64,000 nucleotides of DNA from Ignavibacteriales bacterium (GTDB taxonomy: Bacteria; Bacteroidota; Ignavibacteria; Ignavibacteriales; Melioribacteraceae). Shown here in pieces: positions 29,712-54,998 of this stretch (position 1 is the first letter of the stretch; every line of letters starts with the position of its first letter). The translations under genes were made by a program, and so were the position numbers. The stretch covers positions 1 through 64,000 of the forward strand of contig JACOUS010000019.1 of assembly GCA_016177735.1 (NCBI GenBank), read 5' to 3'. The notes under the pieces are model-generated. The model was not told the DNA's origin. It did no database searches and saw nothing but the letters and a program-made list of their open reading frames with translations.

Positions 29712-29844
29712 TTGCTGGGGTAAAGTTAGGCATTTTTAATTATTTTTGGAAAAACAAAATAAGCTGACGAATTAAATTTAAAATACGGGACTTGAAATTC
29801 GTCCATTTATGCTGTTTTTAAAACTTCGGGGGAAAAATTTTTTT

Positions 29845-31866
29845 ATGAACCGTTGCTTTCAGCTTCTTGCCAGTGCTAAATCTGTTTTGGATTTAAACCG
29901 AATTAACCTTATCAAAATTTTTATGGTTATTCTTTTTTTGAACATTCTCGTTCTGTCAACAAATAGAATCAGTGCACAAGAAAAAGATTCGATCAAAACT
30001 TATCATCTGAAAGATATCACCGTAAAAGGTCTGCTCGAGCTTGAGCCGGAATCATTCATAAAAATTAACACTCCGATAATCGGCAAGTCGGATGCTTCAA
30101 CAGTTATTGATCTCGGCAAAAATATTCCATCCGTAAAAATTCAAACGAACTCGCGCGGTGAAAGCCTTTTCTTTTTTAGAGGAAGCGGAGAGAGACAGCT
30201 AACCCTCTTTTTTGACGGTGTTCCGATCAACATTCCATGGGATAACCGTATTGACTTGAGCTTGATTCCATCTCAAACAATTGAAGAGATAACTGTTTTA
30301 AAAGGAATTCCGCCGGCAATTTTTGGTGCGAATGCTATCGCCGGAGTAATAAATATCTCTTCAAAAAATTTAACGGACGAAACCGGCTCGCTGTCGGTAC
30401 AACTTGGAGAGAATAATCACAAAAATTTTTCCGGTTTGTGGGGAGACGGAAACGATAAACTTTCCTATTTGATTTCCGCTTCTTACAAAAATTCGGACGG
30501 ATTCCGTTTGCCGGAAAATTTTGACGACCCGTCGAATCCCGATACAAAGCGTATTAACAGTTACATTGAAACGAAAAATATTTTTGGAAAATTGAATTAC
30601 AAGTTTTCCGATTCATTCGAGAGCAGATTATCAGTTACATACATTGATTCTAAAAAGGGAGTGCCGCCGGAAATAGGCGCAGCAAATCCGCGCTACTGGA
30701 AATATCCGTTATGGAAAAACCTTATTGTTGCCGCGAACGGAACTTGGAAGATTAATGAATGAAACTCCGCGGTTAATTACAACTTTTCACTGACACGATT
30801 CAACTTGCAGATTGATCAATACAGCGAGCAATCTTTCAAAACAATTAACGAGACAGAAAAGAATTACGATCAAGTTTTTAGAGGCAGAATTGTTTACACA
30901 AATGTTATCGGCGATAACTCCTTGATTAAAATTGCATTTAACGGACAATCATTCCGTCACGAAGAAAAATTTCTATCAAACAATTTCTCTCCTTTAACAT
31001 ATTCCGAAAATATTTTCAGCATCGGAACAGAATATGAGTACGTGAAAGAAAAATATGTTGTTTCTCTCGGCGGAAGTTACGATTGGCTGAACACACCACG
31101 TACCGGCGACAAATCCGGCAAAGATCCGCAAAGCGGCTTCGCTATTAACGGTGCATTTGTTTATCGTTTACAAAATGATCTTTCGGTGAGGTTAAATCTC
31201 GGAAGGAAAACGCGCTTCCCTTCTTTGCGGGAAACATTTTCCGGCGCACTCGGTCGCTTCGTTCCAAATCCAGGATTGAAATCGGAAATTGCTCACTCCG
31301 GCGAGATCGGCTTCAATTATAAAAATCAATTCTTCACGGCGGATGCTTCTTTCTTTTTAACTTATTTGAGCGACGGCATCGTGCGTAAAAGTTTTACGGG
31401 CGGAAAATTTATGCGCGTTAACAAAGATCAAATCAGAACATATGGATTTGAATTTGCATCTTCGTACAAGCCCGATGAAAAAGTAAATATGGTTTTCAAT
31501 TTCACGTATTTAAACGCAAAAGCAAAAAACTCAGCCGGGAAATTTGACGGCACACTCGAATATAAACCTCAGTTATCCTCATCGCTCAATTTTGATTACA
31601 TGTTTACAACAGATTTTTCCGTACTCGCCGAATTTGAGTATCTCGCAAAAGAATACGGCTTGAAAGAAGGGAGCGCTGCTTTTCAAAAACTTCCCGAATA
31701 TTTAATTGTAAATTTCCGCGCGGCATATTTGTTCCTCTTCGATAAAAATAACAAACTGGAATTTTACGTACGCCTCAATAATTTTTTCGACAAACTTTAC
31801 TACACGCAGTTCGGTCTGCCCGAAGCCGGGCGGCAATATTACTTCGGCACTAATTTTTCGCTTTAA
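29845..31866 (+). pseudogene. TonB-dependent receptor interrupted by an in-frame TGA
   Basis: The frame runs without shift from the signal peptide (VILFLNILVLSTNRISAQ) through the plug domain (KSDASTVIDLGKNIPSVKI, FFDGVPINIPWDNRIDLSLI, TVLKGIPPAIFGANAIAGVI) into a 22-strand-type barrel ending in YYFGTNFSL. At 30760-30762 a TGA falls after WKINE, and the next codons continue NSAVNYNFSL in the same frame. A Trp codon TGG would restore it. TGA is a normal stop elsewhere in the window. Either a recent nonsense mutation or a sequencing error. The ligand is unknown; the start could also be 29809 or 29923. Confidence 0.85.
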
Positions 31867-46200: not shown

Positions 46201-47262
46201 ATGCCGGCAAGAATGCAGAAGAACGAATCTGTGAAAAAAACTAAAATCCTTATTCTAAAACTCGGTGCAATCGGCGATGTTGTGATGGCACTCAGTTTAA
46301 TTACCGCTATTGAACAAAAATATCCCGGCGCAGAAATAACATGGGTCTGCGGCAAAATTGTTGAACCGGTTTTATCGGCACTAAAAAAAATAAATACACT
46401 CATAACTGTTGACGAACATAAATTTTACAAGAATGGATTGCGCGGAAAAATTTCTGCTATATCTGATGTGTGGCGCGCATTAAAAGGGAAACGTTTTGAT
46501 ATCGCAATCAATTGTTATCGCAGTAAAATGTATAAGTTACTTCTCCTTCCGGTACGTTCGAACGTTTATCTCGATTTCAGCGGCAGAGACAGAACAAACT
46601 CCTTTATTCCCGGCAGATATCATGCAGACGAATACGCGCGCATAATTTTAGGAACCGACGATTGGCAGTTAAAAAACATGAAGTTTCCCAAAATAAATTT
46701 GGACGGCAATTCTGAAATCAAACAATTAATAAAAGATATTCCCTCGCCCAAAATTATTTTGGCGCCCGGCGGCACAAAAAATATTTTGCGCAGTGATGAT
46801 TTGAGAAGATGGCACGTAGAAAATTACAAAGAACTTGCACGAAAATTATTAGAGCAAAACCCCTCCGTAATTTTAGTTGGTGCTGAAAGTGACGGCTGGG
46901 TTACAAAAGAATTTATCGGAATTAACGTTGTTAATTTAATCGGCAAAACCAGTTTGCTCGATATGATTCGTCTGTTTACTAATGCAGACGTTTTGGTTAC
47001 ACACGATACCGGCACGCTTCATCTTGCAAAACTTTCGGACATAAACATTATTGCTCTCTTCGGTCCGGTCAATCCGAAAGAAAGAATCGGTGTAAATGAA
47101 AACGCGGAAATCTTTTGGGGCGGCAAAAAACTTCCTTGCTCGCCTTGTTACGACGGCAGAAATTTTGCCGACTGCAATAACAATATCTGCATGAAAAATA
47201 TCTCCGTTGAAGAAGTATTCGAAAGAATTGTTAATAAATTGAAGACCGAAAAAAGGAAATAA
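46201..47262 (+). CDS. Family 9 glycosyltransferase (heptosyltransferase-like)
   Basis: 353 residues. Heptosyltransferase fold: KILILKLGAIGDVVMALSLI at the start (the LGxIGD motif), the PKIILAPGGTKNILRSDD donor block, then GKTSLLDMIRLFTNADVLVT with the HDTGTLHLAKLSDINIIALF motif typical of WaaF/WaaC relatives. A final CSPCYDGRNFADCNNNICM cysteine cluster is common in this branch. It probably adds heptose or another sugar to a lipid A core or surface glycan. 9 bases from the next gene. Confidence 0.9.
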   Translation: MPARMQKNESVKKTKILILKLGAIGDVVMALSLITAIEQKYPGAEITWVCGKIVEPVLSALKKINTLITVDEHKFYKNGLRGKISAISDVWRALKGKRFDIAINCYRSKMYKLLLLPVRSNVYLDFSGRDRTNSFIPGRYHADEYARIILGTDDWQLKNMKFPKINLDGNSEIKQLIKDIPSPKIILAPGGTKNILRSDDLRRWHVENYKELARKLLEQNPSVILVGAESDGWVTKEFIGINVVNLIGKTSLLDMIRLFTNADVLVTHDTGTLHLAKLSDINIIALFGPVNPKERIGVNENAEIFWGGKKLPCSPCYDGRNFADCNNNICMKNISVEEVFERIVNKLKTEKRK

Positions 47263-47271
47263 TTCTTAAAA

Positions 47272-48672
47272 ATGATCGCTAATCAAAAATCACGTTACTC
47301 AATCAAACTTTTGCCGGATATGCTTCTGCTCAATATTTCATTCCTGATCTCGGCGATGCTTGCGCAATCGTGGCAAACATTGATGCAGAGACCGTACATG
47401 TTCTTCCTACTTTTTGCTTTGAATGTTTTGTGGTATTTCGTAACAAAGAGAGCGCTCTTTTACGACAGCATAGGCTTTCATAAAATTTATAAACAGATAA
47501 TCGACGTTGCAAAAAGTTCTATCGTGTTGATGCTTGCGTCAATCATTTTCATCTTTGTTGCAAAAGAAGATTTGTTCACACGCTACTTCATTGTTTACAA
47601 CACAATCTTACTGAACTTTGCCGTAAGTCTCCGCATAATTATTTACGGAAGCGTTGAAAGAAAAATCCGAATTGGTGAAAAATATTTAAGGAAGTTAATT
47701 ATCATCGGCAGCGGGCAAACCGCAATTGACTTCTCAAAATTGATTGAGCTGAATCCAAACTTTGGCTACAACTTCATCGGCTTTATCGATAATATCAACG
47801 ACAACAATAAACCGGAAAAATATCTCGGCGGATTTAACAATCTCGAACAATTAATAATCTCACTCGGCATTGAAGAAGTTGTAATTGCAGTTCCGTCTTC
47901 TGAGTACGGAAATTTGAACGGCATCATTTCCGTTTGCGAAAGAAATGCAATACGAACACATATCATTCCTGATTTTTCGCAATTCCTTTCCAAAAAATTT
48001 CTATTAAACATGGTTGAAGATTTCCCGGTAATAACAATGCGGAACGAACCTCTGCTCGAATTTCAATCGCGTTTTATCAAAAGAAGCTTTGACATTACGT
48101 TTTCGCTGCTCGCTTCAGTGTTAATACTTTCGTGGCTTACACCATTGCTTGCGTTATTAATCAAAATGTCTTCGCCCGGTCCGATATTTTTTCTGCAGAA
48201 GCGGATCGGCTTGAAGAACAAAGAGTTCAACTGCTATAAATTCCGTTCAATGTATTTTGCAAATCAAAAAGAAAAATTTGATCCGGCTAAGGAGAACGAT
48301 TCGCGGATAACACGAATCGGAAATTTACTGCGCAAAACTAATCTCGATGAACTTCCGCAAATTTGGAATGTGTTGAAAGGTGATATGTCAATTGTTGGTC
48401 CGCGCCCGCATCCGATTAAATTTCATGAGGTATATATTAAGTACTTTGAAGCCATTAAACTTCGTCATCTTGTAAAACCGGGTTTAACCGGCTGGGCACA
48501 AGTGCACGGCTTGCGCGGTGATGTTACCGATCCCGAAGAAAATAAAAAGAGAACGGTAAAAAGAATCAAACACGATTTGTGGTACATCGAAAACTGGAGC
48601 TTCGGACTCGACATACAGATTGTACTGCTAACTATCTGGCATATGAGCCGCGGAAAAAATACCGGCATTTAA
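47272..48672 (+). CDS. Undecaprenyl-phosphate sugar phosphotransferase (initiating glycosyltransferase)
   Basis: 466 residues of the WbaP/WcaJ/ExoY polyprenyl-phosphate hexose-1-phosphate transferase type. N-terminal membrane helices (about 10-110) and a CoA-binding-like domain ([20 protein letters not shown]) come first. The catalytic C-terminus follows: [90 protein letters not shown]. It starts a lipid-linked glycan. Convergent with the O-antigen ligase-like gene; ends overlap by 4 bases. Confidence 0.93.
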
Positions 48673-50741
48673 TCTTTTTGTACATTATAATTTTTCTGTG
48701 CTTTCGTAATTGCGATACTTAACGCGAGTGTAAACCAAACCATTGTAATTATTTCGTGATCACCGAAATTCCACTCCGTCAACCCGGACACAATAAAAGC
48801 AGCAAAACCTCCAAATGCACCCAGTACATACGATGAAGCAAAAGGAATTTCCCTCACCCTCGTATAATTCTTGTAATGAATGATGAAAATTTTTATCAGC
48901 AAGAAAATAAATGCGATGAAGCCAACCGCACCTAGCGTAACAAGAATATGCACAAAATTGTTGTGCATGTGTCCCTGAATTTCTTTATCGAAGGTTCTCT
49001 TGTATTGTATGTAAAGTTTAGCAAGATCGATATCGCCGGCACCAAAGAGCGGGTGATCAAAAAATATTTTTAAGCCGGCACGCCAAAATGCAAGTCTCGC
49101 AAAGTTGGACGGGTGATAGGGGTCGAGAGCGCTTGCAAGTCTGCTTCTTTTAACATTGCTCATGTAAATGTTATTTGAGTCTGCTGTTATTGAACGCGGC
49201 ACAAAGCTTAGTTCGCCGTGCATCTCAACTTTAACTTCACTTCCGGCAAAAGAAATTTGGTAGAGATCACCTTTCGTACTCAGCAAAAATGTTTTTCCGC
49301 CGGCACTCTCGGCAGAAAAAATATCCGGCATCTTTGCAGTATAGCTCAACTCTGTCAATTCGTTTTGCGATAAAGAAAATATTCTCAAGCCATTCTTTTC
49401 TGCGATTATTAATTTCTTCTCCGCGTACAAAACCGGTTTGCCGAAATTCTGTGCTTCGGCTTGAAATATCAGCGAATCCGGTACAAAATTTTTCAAAGAA
49501 TAAATACTCGTTCCGTTTTGAGGAGAGAACAAAACTACAAAATTGGAGTCGGCAAATATTTTTTCAATATTCGAAAATTCATTACCTGCTCTGCGTACAA
49601 TAATTCTTAGCTCTGTTGGATTTTCAAAAATTGTTAAGCCGCTGTCTTTATCAACAGCATAAATTCGGTTGTTGAAAATTTCCCAATCAGTGGTGAGACC
49701 GGCTGTCATAAATTCTTTGTTGGTGATCTCAAATTCCCCGTTCTTCTTTTTCATCAATACAAAGCGTGTATCAACCAAATTTGCAACGTAAATACTGTCG
49801 TTCCATTTTTTTATTTCCGTTACCGGAGCATTAAAATTATACCGGTTGATTACTTTTTCATTTTTAAACTCTAGCAGACCGTTTTCATAATCACTCACGT
49901 ACAGTTTTCCGTCTTCGGCAAAAAGATTATATGCCCTCCCTTTCGTATTTATTTCTGTCTGCTGTGTCAAAGAATTTCCATTGTTTTGGTACGCGATTAC
50001 ACGGCTGATATTTTTTTCGACGACAATCATTCCGATAAAAAGAATTACAACCGGTGCAATCAAATACCATTTTCTTTTAAGAATGATAATTAGAAACATG
50101 CCGGCTGCCGCCCCCATTAAGCCGGTGCGTTTGTAGGTTGCAAGCAGTGCGAGAAGATTTATCAAAAACAGAAAAAACAAAAAAGATTTTTTGGCGAATG
50201 TCGTTTTCTCATTAATCAAAAACGCAAATAAGATTACCAGCGAAAAAGACATCAGCTCGCTCGAAGTGATGGCATATTGAAATATTGCCGGTCCCGACTC
50301 CTTTAACTGGTAAAGATTGTTGATAAAATAATCGTAAGAAACTACAAGATAAAAACACATCATGAGCAGTGAAGCGGCAAGATAGATGAAAACAAATTTT
50401 TTGAGCTGTTTATTATCACCCGCAACTGCAGAAAAAGTATAAACGATTGGAATCAGCAAAACCCTTTTGAGCAGGTTATGAAACGAATGAGCCGGCTCGT
50501 TGGAAAATATTGTGGAGAGTATTTCCGCCGCGATAAATAACACGAACGGAATTTCTAATCCCGTTTTTGTAAACGGATTTTTTCTCGCAACAAAATATTT
50601 CGCAATAAGTGCAAGCAGCGCGCCGTAATATCCAAGCTGGTTCAGAAAAATTGAGTTGGTAAGTGTTACAAGAAATAATATCACGCAACCAAGAATGATA
50701 TTATCGATTATTTTTTTTGTTGTAGTGTTTGAATTCTGCAT
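48669..50741 (-). CDS. O-antigen ligase/polymerase family protein with a large inserted propeller-like domain
   Basis: 690 residues, far longer than the usual 400-450. Residues 1-245 hold about nine membrane helices. At 531-600 the standard periplasmic motif returns: RSRLASALDPYHPSNFARLA, FWRAGLKIFFDHPLFGAGD, then the HMHNNFVHILVTLG catalytic-loop block and three more helices. Between them, about 262-530 (DNA 49152-49958) is a soluble domain made of repeats of the type NRIYAVDKDSGLTIFENP and KLIIAEKNGLRIFSLSQ, about five or six blades of a beta-propeller. It would sit in the periplasm beside the ligase active site. Substrate unknown. Confidence 0.9.
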   Translation of the reverse strand: MQNSNTTTKKIIDNIILGCVILFLVTLTNSIFLNQLGYYGALLALIAKYFVARKNPFTKTGLEIPFVLFIAAEILSTIFSNEPAHSFHNLLKRVLLIPIVYTFSAVAGDNKQLKKFVFIYLAASLLMMCFYLVVSYDYFINNLYQLKESGPAIFQYAITSSELMSFSLVILFAFLINEKTTFAKKSFLFFLFLINLLALLATYKRTGLMGAAAGMFLIIILKRKWYLIAPVVILFIGMIVVEKNISRVIAYQNNGNSLTQQTEINTKGRAYNLFAEDGKLYVSDYENGLLEFKNEKVINRYNFNAPVTEIKKWNDSIYVANLVDTRFVLMKKKNGEFEITNKEFMTAGLTTDWEIFNNRIYAVDKDSGLTIFENPTELRIIVRRAGNEFSNIEKIFADSNFVVLFSPQNGTSIYSLKNFVPDSLIFQAEAQNFGKPVLYAEKKLIIAEKNGLRIFSLSQNELTELSYTAKMPDIFSAESAGGKTFLLSTKGDLYQISFAGSEVKVEMHGELSFVPRSITADSNNIYMSNVKRSRLASALDPYHPSNFARLAFWRAGLKIFFDHPLFGAGDIDLAKLYIQYKRTFDKEIQGHMHNNFVHILVTLGAVGFIAFIFLLIKIFIIHYKNYTRVREIPFASSYVLGAFGGFAAFIVSGLTEWNFGDHEIITMVWFTLALSIAITKAQKNYNVQKD

Positions 50742-52854: not shown

Positions 52855-53673
52855 TTAGAATGAAATTTTATAGCCGAGCCAGATTTTATTCTGTGAGTGA
52901 TCAATGATGAAATTGTTTGCAACAGAAGAGCTCTCCTCAATTGAATTTGAACGTGAGGAGAGAAGCAGATCGATCTGGCTGTAAATCCAGAGAGCGGCGT
53001 AACTAAAAATCAGGATGTTTCTCGTTTTATAAGATTGATTATAGTCGTCGTACTTTTGTTGTATTAACGTTTTGCCGGTCTCGTTTAAATAATCATTTTC
53101 TTTTTTGTTGGTGTTGATAATAAAATAAATCATACCAACCAAGTTTGCTGTGGAAGCCGCGCTTAGAATAAAACCTTTTGCGTTAGTTTCTTTATACAGC
53201 TGTCCCCAGCCGGGCAAAGCAATATTTCTCAATATTGACTGACGCATTTGTTCGTTTAGAAATTCGGGTGAATCCAAAATTTGTTTGAGTGAATCACTTT
53301 CTACTTTCGGCGGCTCAATACTTTTCATGTATTCTGTTTTTACTTCGTTGAATATTGAAATCAGCTTGGGAGAAATCTCTGCCGGATTTGGCGGATAATT
53401 TTTATTAATCTTCAAAATTTCCGTGAAGCTTACACGAGCAGATATTTCATCTCCTACCGAATAGAATGATACCGCGCGCATCAAATAAACATCCGTGAGA
53501 ACTGAATCTGCTATGCCGTCTTGTTTTACAAAATTGTCGGAAAGTTGTATTACGTTTTCATACCCGAATGATTCGTACTCTTTTTTTATTTTTTCATATT
53601 CACCTTCTTGCGCAAAGACGGTTGAAAAAACAAAAAAGAATCCGGACGCTAAGAAAAATAATTTCTTCGTCAT
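52855..53673 (-). CDS. DUF5683-type membrane-associated protein
   Basis: 272 residues. A signal peptide (KLFFLASGFFFVFSTVFA) is followed by a TPR-like helical half (about 25-115) and then the DUF5683 pattern: RNIALPGWGQLYKETNAKGF, a membrane helix (AASTANLVGMIYFIINTN), and a second (ILIFSYAALWIYSQIDLLL). Members are widespread in Bacteroidota beside envelope genes with no known role. It overlaps the kelch gene upstream by 4 bases (ATGA) and ends the operon that starts at 59581. Confidence 0.8.
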   Translation of the reverse strand: MTKKLFFLASGFFFVFSTVFAQEGEYEKIKKEYESFGYENVIQLSDNFVKQDGIADSVLTDVYLMRAVSFYSVGDEISARVSFTEILKINKNYPPNPAEISPKLISIFNEVKTEYMKSIEPPKVESDSLKQILDSPEFLNEQMRQSILRNIALPGWGQLYKETNAKGFILSAASTANLVGMIYFIINTNKKENDYLNETGKTLIQQKYDDYNQSYKTRNILIFSYAALWIYSQIDLLLSSRSNSIEESSSVANNFIIDHSQNKIWLGYKISF

Positions 53674-54998
53674 TTGAGAAGAACCATTTTCTTAGTTTCG
53701 TAAAATTCTGAGCGAAGCGAAGAATCTGCAACTCTTAACGTGTAGAAATAAACACCGCTCGGCAAATTGCGGCGCCGATTTGAAATCTGCGCTACATCAA
53801 AATTGACTTTGTATGTGCCCGGCAGTTGATGTTCATTCACAAGCGTTGCAATTTCTCTGCCGAGCATATCGTAAATTTTCAATGAGACATGAAGCTGTGA
53901 TGCGTTTGAGCGCCTTTGTACACTTGTAATTGCGTATTCAATTGTTGTTGACGGATTGAAAGGATTCGGATAATTATCGTATAATTTAAACCCTTGCGGA
54001 AGCTGCAAATCTTCTACCCCGGTTGTTGTATCTATATAAATTTCTACGTCGGGAACTACTTTTTTATTCTGATCTCTGCCGCCGAAAACAACTATAGATC
54101 TTCCAACAGCAACAACAATCGGACTTCTTCTTGCATTCAGCATCGATGAAGTGCTGCTGATATTCACTATTTTCTTTTTTGAATTATCGTAAATAATTTC
54201 TTCAACAGTATTGAGTGCTTCGTTTGTTTCGTTGTATCCGCCGAGCACGAAGGCTTTATTTAGTATTCCGTTATAAACAGATGCACCGCCGGCTCTTCTT
54301 TCTAAAAGTTTCTCTGGCAATGTCCCGTAAGTTTTATCGGTAATGTTGAACTTCCTAATGATGCTTCGTATGCCGTTATAAACCCCGCCGAAAATATAAA
54401 TATCGTCGCCAACAATTGAAGTCATATGATACTGGGGTGCTTCATCGGACTGTAAAGAGTAGGTGATTTGCTGTGTGTTCAAATCATATTCATCAATGAA
54501 CGGCAAACTGTGAGACGGGTCTATCGGGCTGCCGCCGATGATATAAAATTTATCTCCTTTAATATGACCGGTAGCCAGCGATCTACCGAAATTATCTTTG
54601 GTATCAAAAGTGAAAGTTGTGTCATTCCCGATATTCCAGAATTCCAAATTATTTCTATCACCCGAAGTGATATCTACACCGCCAAAATAGAGGAGAAAAT
54701 TTTTCCATACGTCTGCAATTAAAAGGTTACGCGGCTGATTCATAGAACCGACCATCTTCCATTGATTGGTAATTACATTGGGATCAAATTCCTGAATCCA
54801 ATCAACTGCGCTTTGCAGATCATCAGAATAACCGCCGATGATATATATTTTTGCATCGGCTTCCAACCCGGTGGGACTGTGAACAACCGCTACAGCGCCG
54901 GAAACCGGGTAAGGCATTGTGCCTATCTTTTTCCAGAAACCCTGTGCAAATAATTCGGGGCTTATAAAAATTAAAAGTACTAAAAGTAGTTTTTTCAT
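53670..54998 (-). CDS. Kelch-repeat surface protein with type IX sorting domain
   Basis: 442 residues. Signal peptide (LLLVLLIFISPELFAQ), then five or six kelch-type blades (AKIYIIGGYSDDLQSAVDWI, KFYIIGGSPIDPSHSLPFI, IYIFGGVYNGIRSIIRKF, KAFVLGGYNETNEAL, IVVFGGRDQNKKVVPDVE) forming a propeller. The type A sorting domain follows: DNYPNPFNPSTTIEYAI, LKIYDMLGREIATLVNE and TKKMVLLK. Near the end ADSSLRSEFYE is encoded by the dispersed repeat GATTCTTCGCTTCGCTCAGA, lengthening the last strand. It should be secreted and surface attached; ligand unknown. Confidence 0.88.
   Translation of the reverse strand: MKKLLLVLLIFISPELFAQGFWKKIGTMPYPVSGAVAVVHSPTGLEADAKIYIIGGYSDDLQSAVDWIQEFDPNVITNQWKMVGSMNQPRNLLIADVWKNFLLYFGGVDITSGDRNNLEFWNIGNDTTFTFDTKDNFGRSLATGHIKGDKFYIIGGSPIDPSHSLPFIDEYDLNTQQITYSLQSDEAPQYHMTSIVGDDIYIFGGVYNGIRSIIRKFNITDKTYGTLPEKLLERRAGGASVYNGILNKAFVLGGYNETNEALNTVEEIIYDNSKKKIVNISSTSSMLNARRSPIVVAVGRSIVVFGGRDQNKKVVPDVEIYIDTTTGVEDLQLPQGFKLYDNYPNPFNPSTTIEYAITSVQRRSNASQLHVSLKIYDMLGREIATLVNEHQLPGTYKVNFDVAQISNRRRNLPSGVYFYTLRVADSSLRSEFYETKKMVLLK
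53705..53726. repeat. Dispersed repeat arm inside the kelch gene
   Basis: These 22 bases are the exact reverse complement of 17190-17211, the second arm of the inverted repeat after nosZ. Here they encode part of the sorting domain (DSSLRSEF) in frame. Confidence 0.8.

Follow-up and report, generated by a model that had tools for sequence, protein, structure and literature searches.

A probable WaaL-type O-antigen ligase of Ignavibacteriales with a seven-bladed beta-propeller inserted before its catalytic segment

The closest described counterparts of the protein considered here are the WaaL O-antigen ligases, represented by the solved enzyme of Cupriavidus metallidurans (7tpg and 7tpj) and by that of Escherichia coli, in which R215, R288 and H338 are required residues (cited in PMC3643930). 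How WaaL enzymes choose their donor and acceptor glycans is poorly understood. Three further described systems bear on the comparison: WadA of Brucella, a bifunctional glycosyltransferase and O-antigen ligase (PMC9938171); PorZ, in which seven-bladed beta-propellers form part of a protein shown to bind LPS glycan (PMC8545088); and the Wzy polymerases, with their two RX15G periplasmic loops, PL3 and PL5 (PMC12004945). Searches of the open-access literature returned no description of an O-antigen ligase with an internal propeller. Here we describe such a protein from an Ignavibacteriales bacterium of the Melioribacteraceae (assembly GCA_016177735.1, contig JACOUS010000019.1), encoded in a window of 64,000 nucleotides, the whole stretch of DNA that was analyzed. 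It appears to be the same known enzyme with a new domain, seen in one lineage of environmental bacteria (Ignavibacteria), in an architecture that appears to be undescribed.

The enzyme and its genomic setting

The gene lies on the reverse strand of the window (48669..50741), where ORF calling recovers a single intact open frame of 690 residues. The Wzy_C domain (PF04932) was found in all 47 homologues scanned, and in the 690-residue protein itself its match is split in two by the insert (E 2.6e-16; 60.2 bits against a cut-off of 31.7). An AlphaFold2 model, computed from an alignment with 47 homologues, has a mean pLDDT of 90.9 and a pTM of 0.84. Model helices and alignments delimit an N-terminal membrane half (residues 1-244; 50010..50741, reverse strand), which includes R205 (50127-50129); beyond the insert follows a C-terminal half (residues 532-690; 48669..49148, reverse strand). 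The latter is made up of a periplasmic helix with the signature DPYHPSNFxR549 (R549 codon at 49095-49097), the motif GHxH593NNxxxxxxxxGxxG (H593 codon at 48963-48965) and three membrane helices.

Several lines of evidence place this enzyme with WaaL. The fold matches of the full-length model are filled by the propeller, and the WaaL match therefore rests on an insert-less homologue that was modelled separately (pLDDT 87.3). This model superposes on WaaL (7tpg_B) with a Z-score of 30.0 over 372 aligned residues at an rmsd of 4.0 (Foldseek E 5e-8); 7tpg is its sole strong solved match, the next being FtsW/RodA at Z 12-16 (second best 15.6). At the sequence level, a profile of the insert-less set matches 7tpg along nearly its whole length (E 7e-16), and one of the propeller-bearing set matches its C-terminal half (E 3.2e-6). 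R205, R549 and H593 were placed by alignment to R191, R265 and H313 of 7tpg, in the case of R205 via the insert-less set, and the roles of the C. metallidurans residues were taken from the alignment together with the E. coli residues named in PMC3643930. So placed, the equivalents of the WaaL functional residues are retained in 44 of 47 homologues (R205) or in all 47 (R549 and H593); H591 is likewise invariant (47/47), as are the H, the N and both G residues of the H-N-x9-G-x-x-G motif, which is also present.

In the window, the ligase gene converges with a forward-strand gene for an undecaprenyl-phosphate glucose phosphotransferase-like protein (WcaJ/EPS_sugtrans; 47272..48672; TIGR03023 E 1.2e-120, with TIGR03025 also above cut-off), next to which lies a family 9 glycosyltransferase resembling LPS heptosyltransferases (46201..47262, forward strand; PF01075 E 2.1e-21; TIGR02195 E 2.3e-27, below cut-off). 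The WcaJ-like class initiates O-unit/EPS synthesis, and its convergent pairing with the ligase is also seen in several relatives. The commonest site in relatives reads msbA, ligase, often a family 2 glycosyltransferase, then NAD kinase. The msbA-ligase order is common to insert-bearing and insert-less ligases, an MsbA-like gene being present, mostly directly upstream, at 38 of 50 loci of the former and 15 of 19 of the latter. The msbA locus of the window genome (L160) has no ligase; with its ligase away from msbA, the LPS linkage of this copy therefore rests on homology and on the sugar-transferase neighbor. The genome encodes LpxC, KdtA and MsbA, and hence an LPS acceptor is expected.

We also record some observations on the neighborhoods themselves. 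Many loci with a propeller ligase or a short ligase have, immediately before msbA on its upstream side, a member of a lipoprotein-like family, F6 (at 4738-5976 of L160, i.e., G000:C3:86000-100000); the F6 sequence of L031 reads like a TolB-type propeller. Elsewhere in the window, a TonB-dependent receptor-like sequence (29809-31866) is split into two consecutive ORFs (317 and 353 aa) with ~40 bases between them, which may reflect a frameshift or a pseudogene. A secreted Kelch-like propeller protein (53670-54998), whose C-terminal end reads as a type IX secretion sorting signal, shows no link that we could see to the ligase propeller.

The Wzy_C domain is known from polymerases too, and the polysaccharide genes and WcaJ-like transferase around the window copy would suit an O-antigen/exopolysaccharide polymerase of the Wzy type, with the propeller guiding the growing chain. 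We regard this as quite improbable: the closest fold is that of WaaL; the commonest site is the msbA-ligase-glycosyltransferase-NAD kinase array; and the only other Wzy_C protein of the genome (G000:C20; L175 5501-6856), which lies within a polysaccharide cluster, is the likelier polymerase and is itself likely to make O-antigen or EPS. A protein O-oligosaccharyltransferase of the PglL type, with the propeller recognizing an acceptor protein, is a very improbable account. PglL does have Wzy_C and the same Arg/His set (PMC3643930), and there is a weak match to TIGR03097 (putative O-glycosylation ligase; E 1.8e-9, far below cut-off); however, PglL_A (PF15864) is matched neither by the window protein (at E<=1) nor by any of the 47 members (at E<=0.01), and no pilin-like neighbor was seen at the ligase loci, where the neighbors are MsbA, the family 2 glycosyltransferase, NAD kinase and the sugar transferase. 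Moreover, PglL genes lie outside LPS loci (PMC3643930), whereas the ligase of the relatives sits in an msbA/LPS-type locus, at whose msbA slot it is exchanged one for one with a short ligase (see below). The acceptor protein that an earlier, sequence-only reading of this DNA had offered as a possible ligand is thus unsupported.

The inserted propeller

The insert spans residues 245-531 (~287 residues; 49149..50009, reverse strand) and lies where the large periplasmic loop begins, directly before the catalytic segment with DPYHPSN..., R549 and HNNF, just where the sequence-only reading had put it. Its identification draws on DSSP of the AlphaFold2 model, Foldseek and VIA comparisons and LVIVD matches in homologues. 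DSSP assigns it 28 strands, which form seven four-stranded A-B-C-D blades in a closed ring; the blade-like repeats noted earlier from the letters are thus resolved by strand order into seven blades. The velcro closure of blade 7 combines the N-terminal strands 245-253 and 258-265 with the C-terminal strands 517-521 and 524-531. Since two strands of blade 7 come from them, residues 245-265 belong to the propeller; hence the limits first given (49152-49958, residues ~262-530) located the insert correctly but omitted its first 17 residues, the true start being residue 245 (base 50009). The further proposal, that of a periplasmic propeller lying next to the active site in a protein of the O-antigen ligase type, is likewise supported.

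Propellers in the PDB superpose on ~260-270 residues of the model with Z-scores of 21-23.5 (Foldseek and VIA), and E. coli YncE (3vgz) gives a Z-score of 21.8 against its propeller. Among the homologous inserts, 11 of 46 match LVIVD (PF08309; best E 1.6e-14). The window's own insert has no such match, and a Pfam scan of the window protein by itself returned no significant propeller domain (NHL E 0.08), so that the evidence for the fold comes from the homologue matches and the structure. On these grounds we read the insert as an LVIVD/YncE-like seven-bladed propeller; the model and the fold matches rule out a chance beta-rich loop. A match to DUF956 (E 2.6e-4, below cut-off, in one member only) was taken as probably spurious. 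As for the provenance of the domain, no donor gene was identified: the genome itself offers only weak matches (a 617-aa frame, E 6e-5), and a match in G089 is a lipoprotein-like sequence with other domains, not a stand-alone donor.

The insert is less conserved on average than the membrane parts (0.35 vs 0.51-0.58), and its conservation is concentrated in residues 266-385 (49587..49946, reverse strand), which carry the motifs T-GRA, DYxxG, TPxPV, LxDTRF, EFxSPGxT and DxDSGLT, many of them in loops of the insertion-point face. The best-conserved positions (T266, G268, D284, G288, P306, D324, R326, G348, D364, D366 and G368) fall mostly within the B-C and D-A loops of blades 7, 1, 2 and 3; part of the conserved Asp and Gly constitutes the generic LVIVD blade motif, and the clustering on half of the ring was noted post hoc. 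Blades 4-6 are poorly conserved and vary on both faces; taken across the entire ring, top and bottom loops therefore do not differ significantly in conservation (p 0.09). According to the strand order of the model, the broken B-C loop of blade 7 is where the chain passes into and out of the propeller. This would make the B-C/D-A face the side joined to the membrane domain, near R549 and H593, and we infer that this conserved loop face would look toward the membrane and the active site.

Distribution and exchange with a short ligase

Full or partial copies of the propeller ligase are present in 71 of the 146 genomes of the genus, family and order, and the class has a second family with the insert, f59, in which six genomes carry it. 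Homologue searches recovered full-length copies (677-742 residues) at ~60 distinct loci, with a nearly constant insert of 292-309 residues between fixed points; beyond the phylum, the search was a single pattern-based scan able to find close relatives only. Because the architecture and length recur at ~60 independent loci, including those of single-contig genomes, the assembly or gene-fusion artefact about which the sequence-only reading had cautioned can be ruled out. That reading was also right in holding that usual family members have no such domain: homologues from the remaining families of this class have no insert, although over query residues ~530-680 they are 32-49% identical in their C-terminal parts, and in 19 insert-less homologues the membrane helix runs straight into the segment preceding the catalytic Arg, with <=14 extra residues.

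On a quick tree built from the membrane part only, one change accounts for the insert-bearing rows and one for the insert-less rows, and no insert-free descendant is nested within the insert-bearing clade. The branch joining all 60 insert-bearing rows has a support of only 60, with one row being long-branched; on this tree the propeller appears to have been gained once, in an ancestor of the Ignavibacteriales-type ligases. The f59 rows nest, with weak support, among the ligases of the order, a placement that would fit a possible horizontal transfer between orders. The f59 inserts (L065-L069) keep clear LVIVD repeats. Further, in the complete genome G115 the propeller-ligase gene (C1:3539446-3541490) seems to be broken, with several stops and overlapping fragments, which suggests that this species lost its ligase recently.

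The second kind of ligase at these loci is a short Wzy_C protein of 377-416 aa, encoded by 38 of the 146 genomes. In nine of the ten short-ligase loci read (L161-L169 and L176) it occupies the msbA-adjacent slot; in G065 it lies beside the sugar transferase (L176), where sister genomes carry the propeller ligase (L092). No genome has both (Fisher p 2e-14, uncorrected for shared ancestry). Mutual exclusion and occupation of the same slot therefore provide good evidence that the propeller and short ligases do the same basic job. In the quick tree a long branch leads to a separate clade that holds the short ligases; these hence look like replacements, and their derivation by loss of the propeller is unsupported. 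Given that the sister species use a ligase lacking it, the propeller is not needed for ligation as such. Its bearer, having the catalytic residues and scaffold of WaaL and being swapped one for one with an ordinary short ligase, gives no support to the new kind of ligase that had been envisaged.

The presence of propeller-free ligases in the same slot, along with the poor conservation of blades 4-6 and the lower conservation of the insert relative to the membrane parts, might be taken to mean that the insertion is passive and structural and that the propeller plays no part toward the substrate. We hold this to be unlikely, since each of the ~60 copies keeps a near-constant length, insert-free descendants are absent from within the group, and charged residues (e.g., D284, D324, R326, D364 and D366) persist in one half of the ring.

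Proposed role and comparison with described systems

Taking these observations together, we consider it reasonably probable that this is the lineage's WaaL-type O-antigen ligase, in which the inserted propeller likely acts as a lid or clamp. Briefly, the membrane scaffold would transfer undecaprenyl-diphosphate-linked glycan to lipid A-core on the periplasmic side, with H593, R205 and R549 serving in the reaction as the alignments predict. Blades 7 and 1-3 most likely pack their conserved loops on the catalytic loop or touch the invariant part of the substrate with them, the variable blades 4-6 being free to meet the variable O-antigen or a partner protein. The propeller would then set the lipid A-core and/or the incoming polysaccharide above the catalytic histidine. 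The earlier suggestion that the domain chooses or holds the glycan is carried forward by this proposal, on inference from the model and conservation; PorZ offers a precedent for LPS glycan binding by a propeller protein (PMC8545088).

A ring that is half conserved and half variable would fit a lid, but it would equally fit a platform by which the same WaaL-type ligase is tethered to a partner, such as MsbA, Wzy/Wzz or the Lpt proteins, in place of binding glycan. Propellers often serve in protein interactions, and the Foldseek list is full of such cases, including BamB of the BAM complex; the msbA adjacency and the conserved face with its variable remainder likewise suit a docking surface. Nevertheless, no co-conserved partner gene emerged that was confined to genomes with the propeller. 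Insert-less loci likewise have MsbA and the family 2 glycosyltransferase, and the F6 lipoprotein, while commoner at insert-bearing than at insert-less loci (24 vs 1), is found beside short ligases too. Docking strikes us as somewhat unlikely. More tentatively than the lid or clamp, one may picture the propeller as a possible substrate-reading gate, which would bind the lipid A-core or O-antigen above the active site and license ligation of the right glycan only. Were this to hold, the protein would be an O-antigen ligase that regulates itself and, in this lineage, an alternative to the short ligase found in the same slot of sister species.

These loci amount to a natural experiment: at one locus the homologous ligases either have or lack a periplasmic domain at their active-site loop, and sister species use a short ligase that never occurs together with the propeller form. 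Such a comparison would reveal directly the effect of an added periplasmic domain on specificity, and glycan binding can be measured on the propeller as a soluble module.

Among described systems, the LVIVD-repeat/YncE-type propellers share the fold and the blade motif (D-x-x-G-L...) with the insert, which differs from them in its 2+2 strand closure, in sitting inside a membrane enzyme and, for the window's own copy, in giving no match to the Pfam model. PorZ of the Bacteroidetes likewise has seven-bladed propellers and binds LPS glycan; however, it is a cell-surface protein with two propellers and no ligase. WadA is likewise an O-antigen ligase with an added domain, but there the addition is cytoplasmic, N-terminal and catalytic, whereas the propeller is periplasmic, inserted and apparently non-catalytic. 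Finally, with WaaL of C. metallidurans and E. coli the protein has in common the scaffold, the two Arg and the His, the H-N-x9-G-x-x-G motif and, in its relatives, the LPS/msbA context; it is set apart by the additional propeller, a 287-residue insert placed where the large periplasmic loop begins, which brings it to 690 aa as against ~400.
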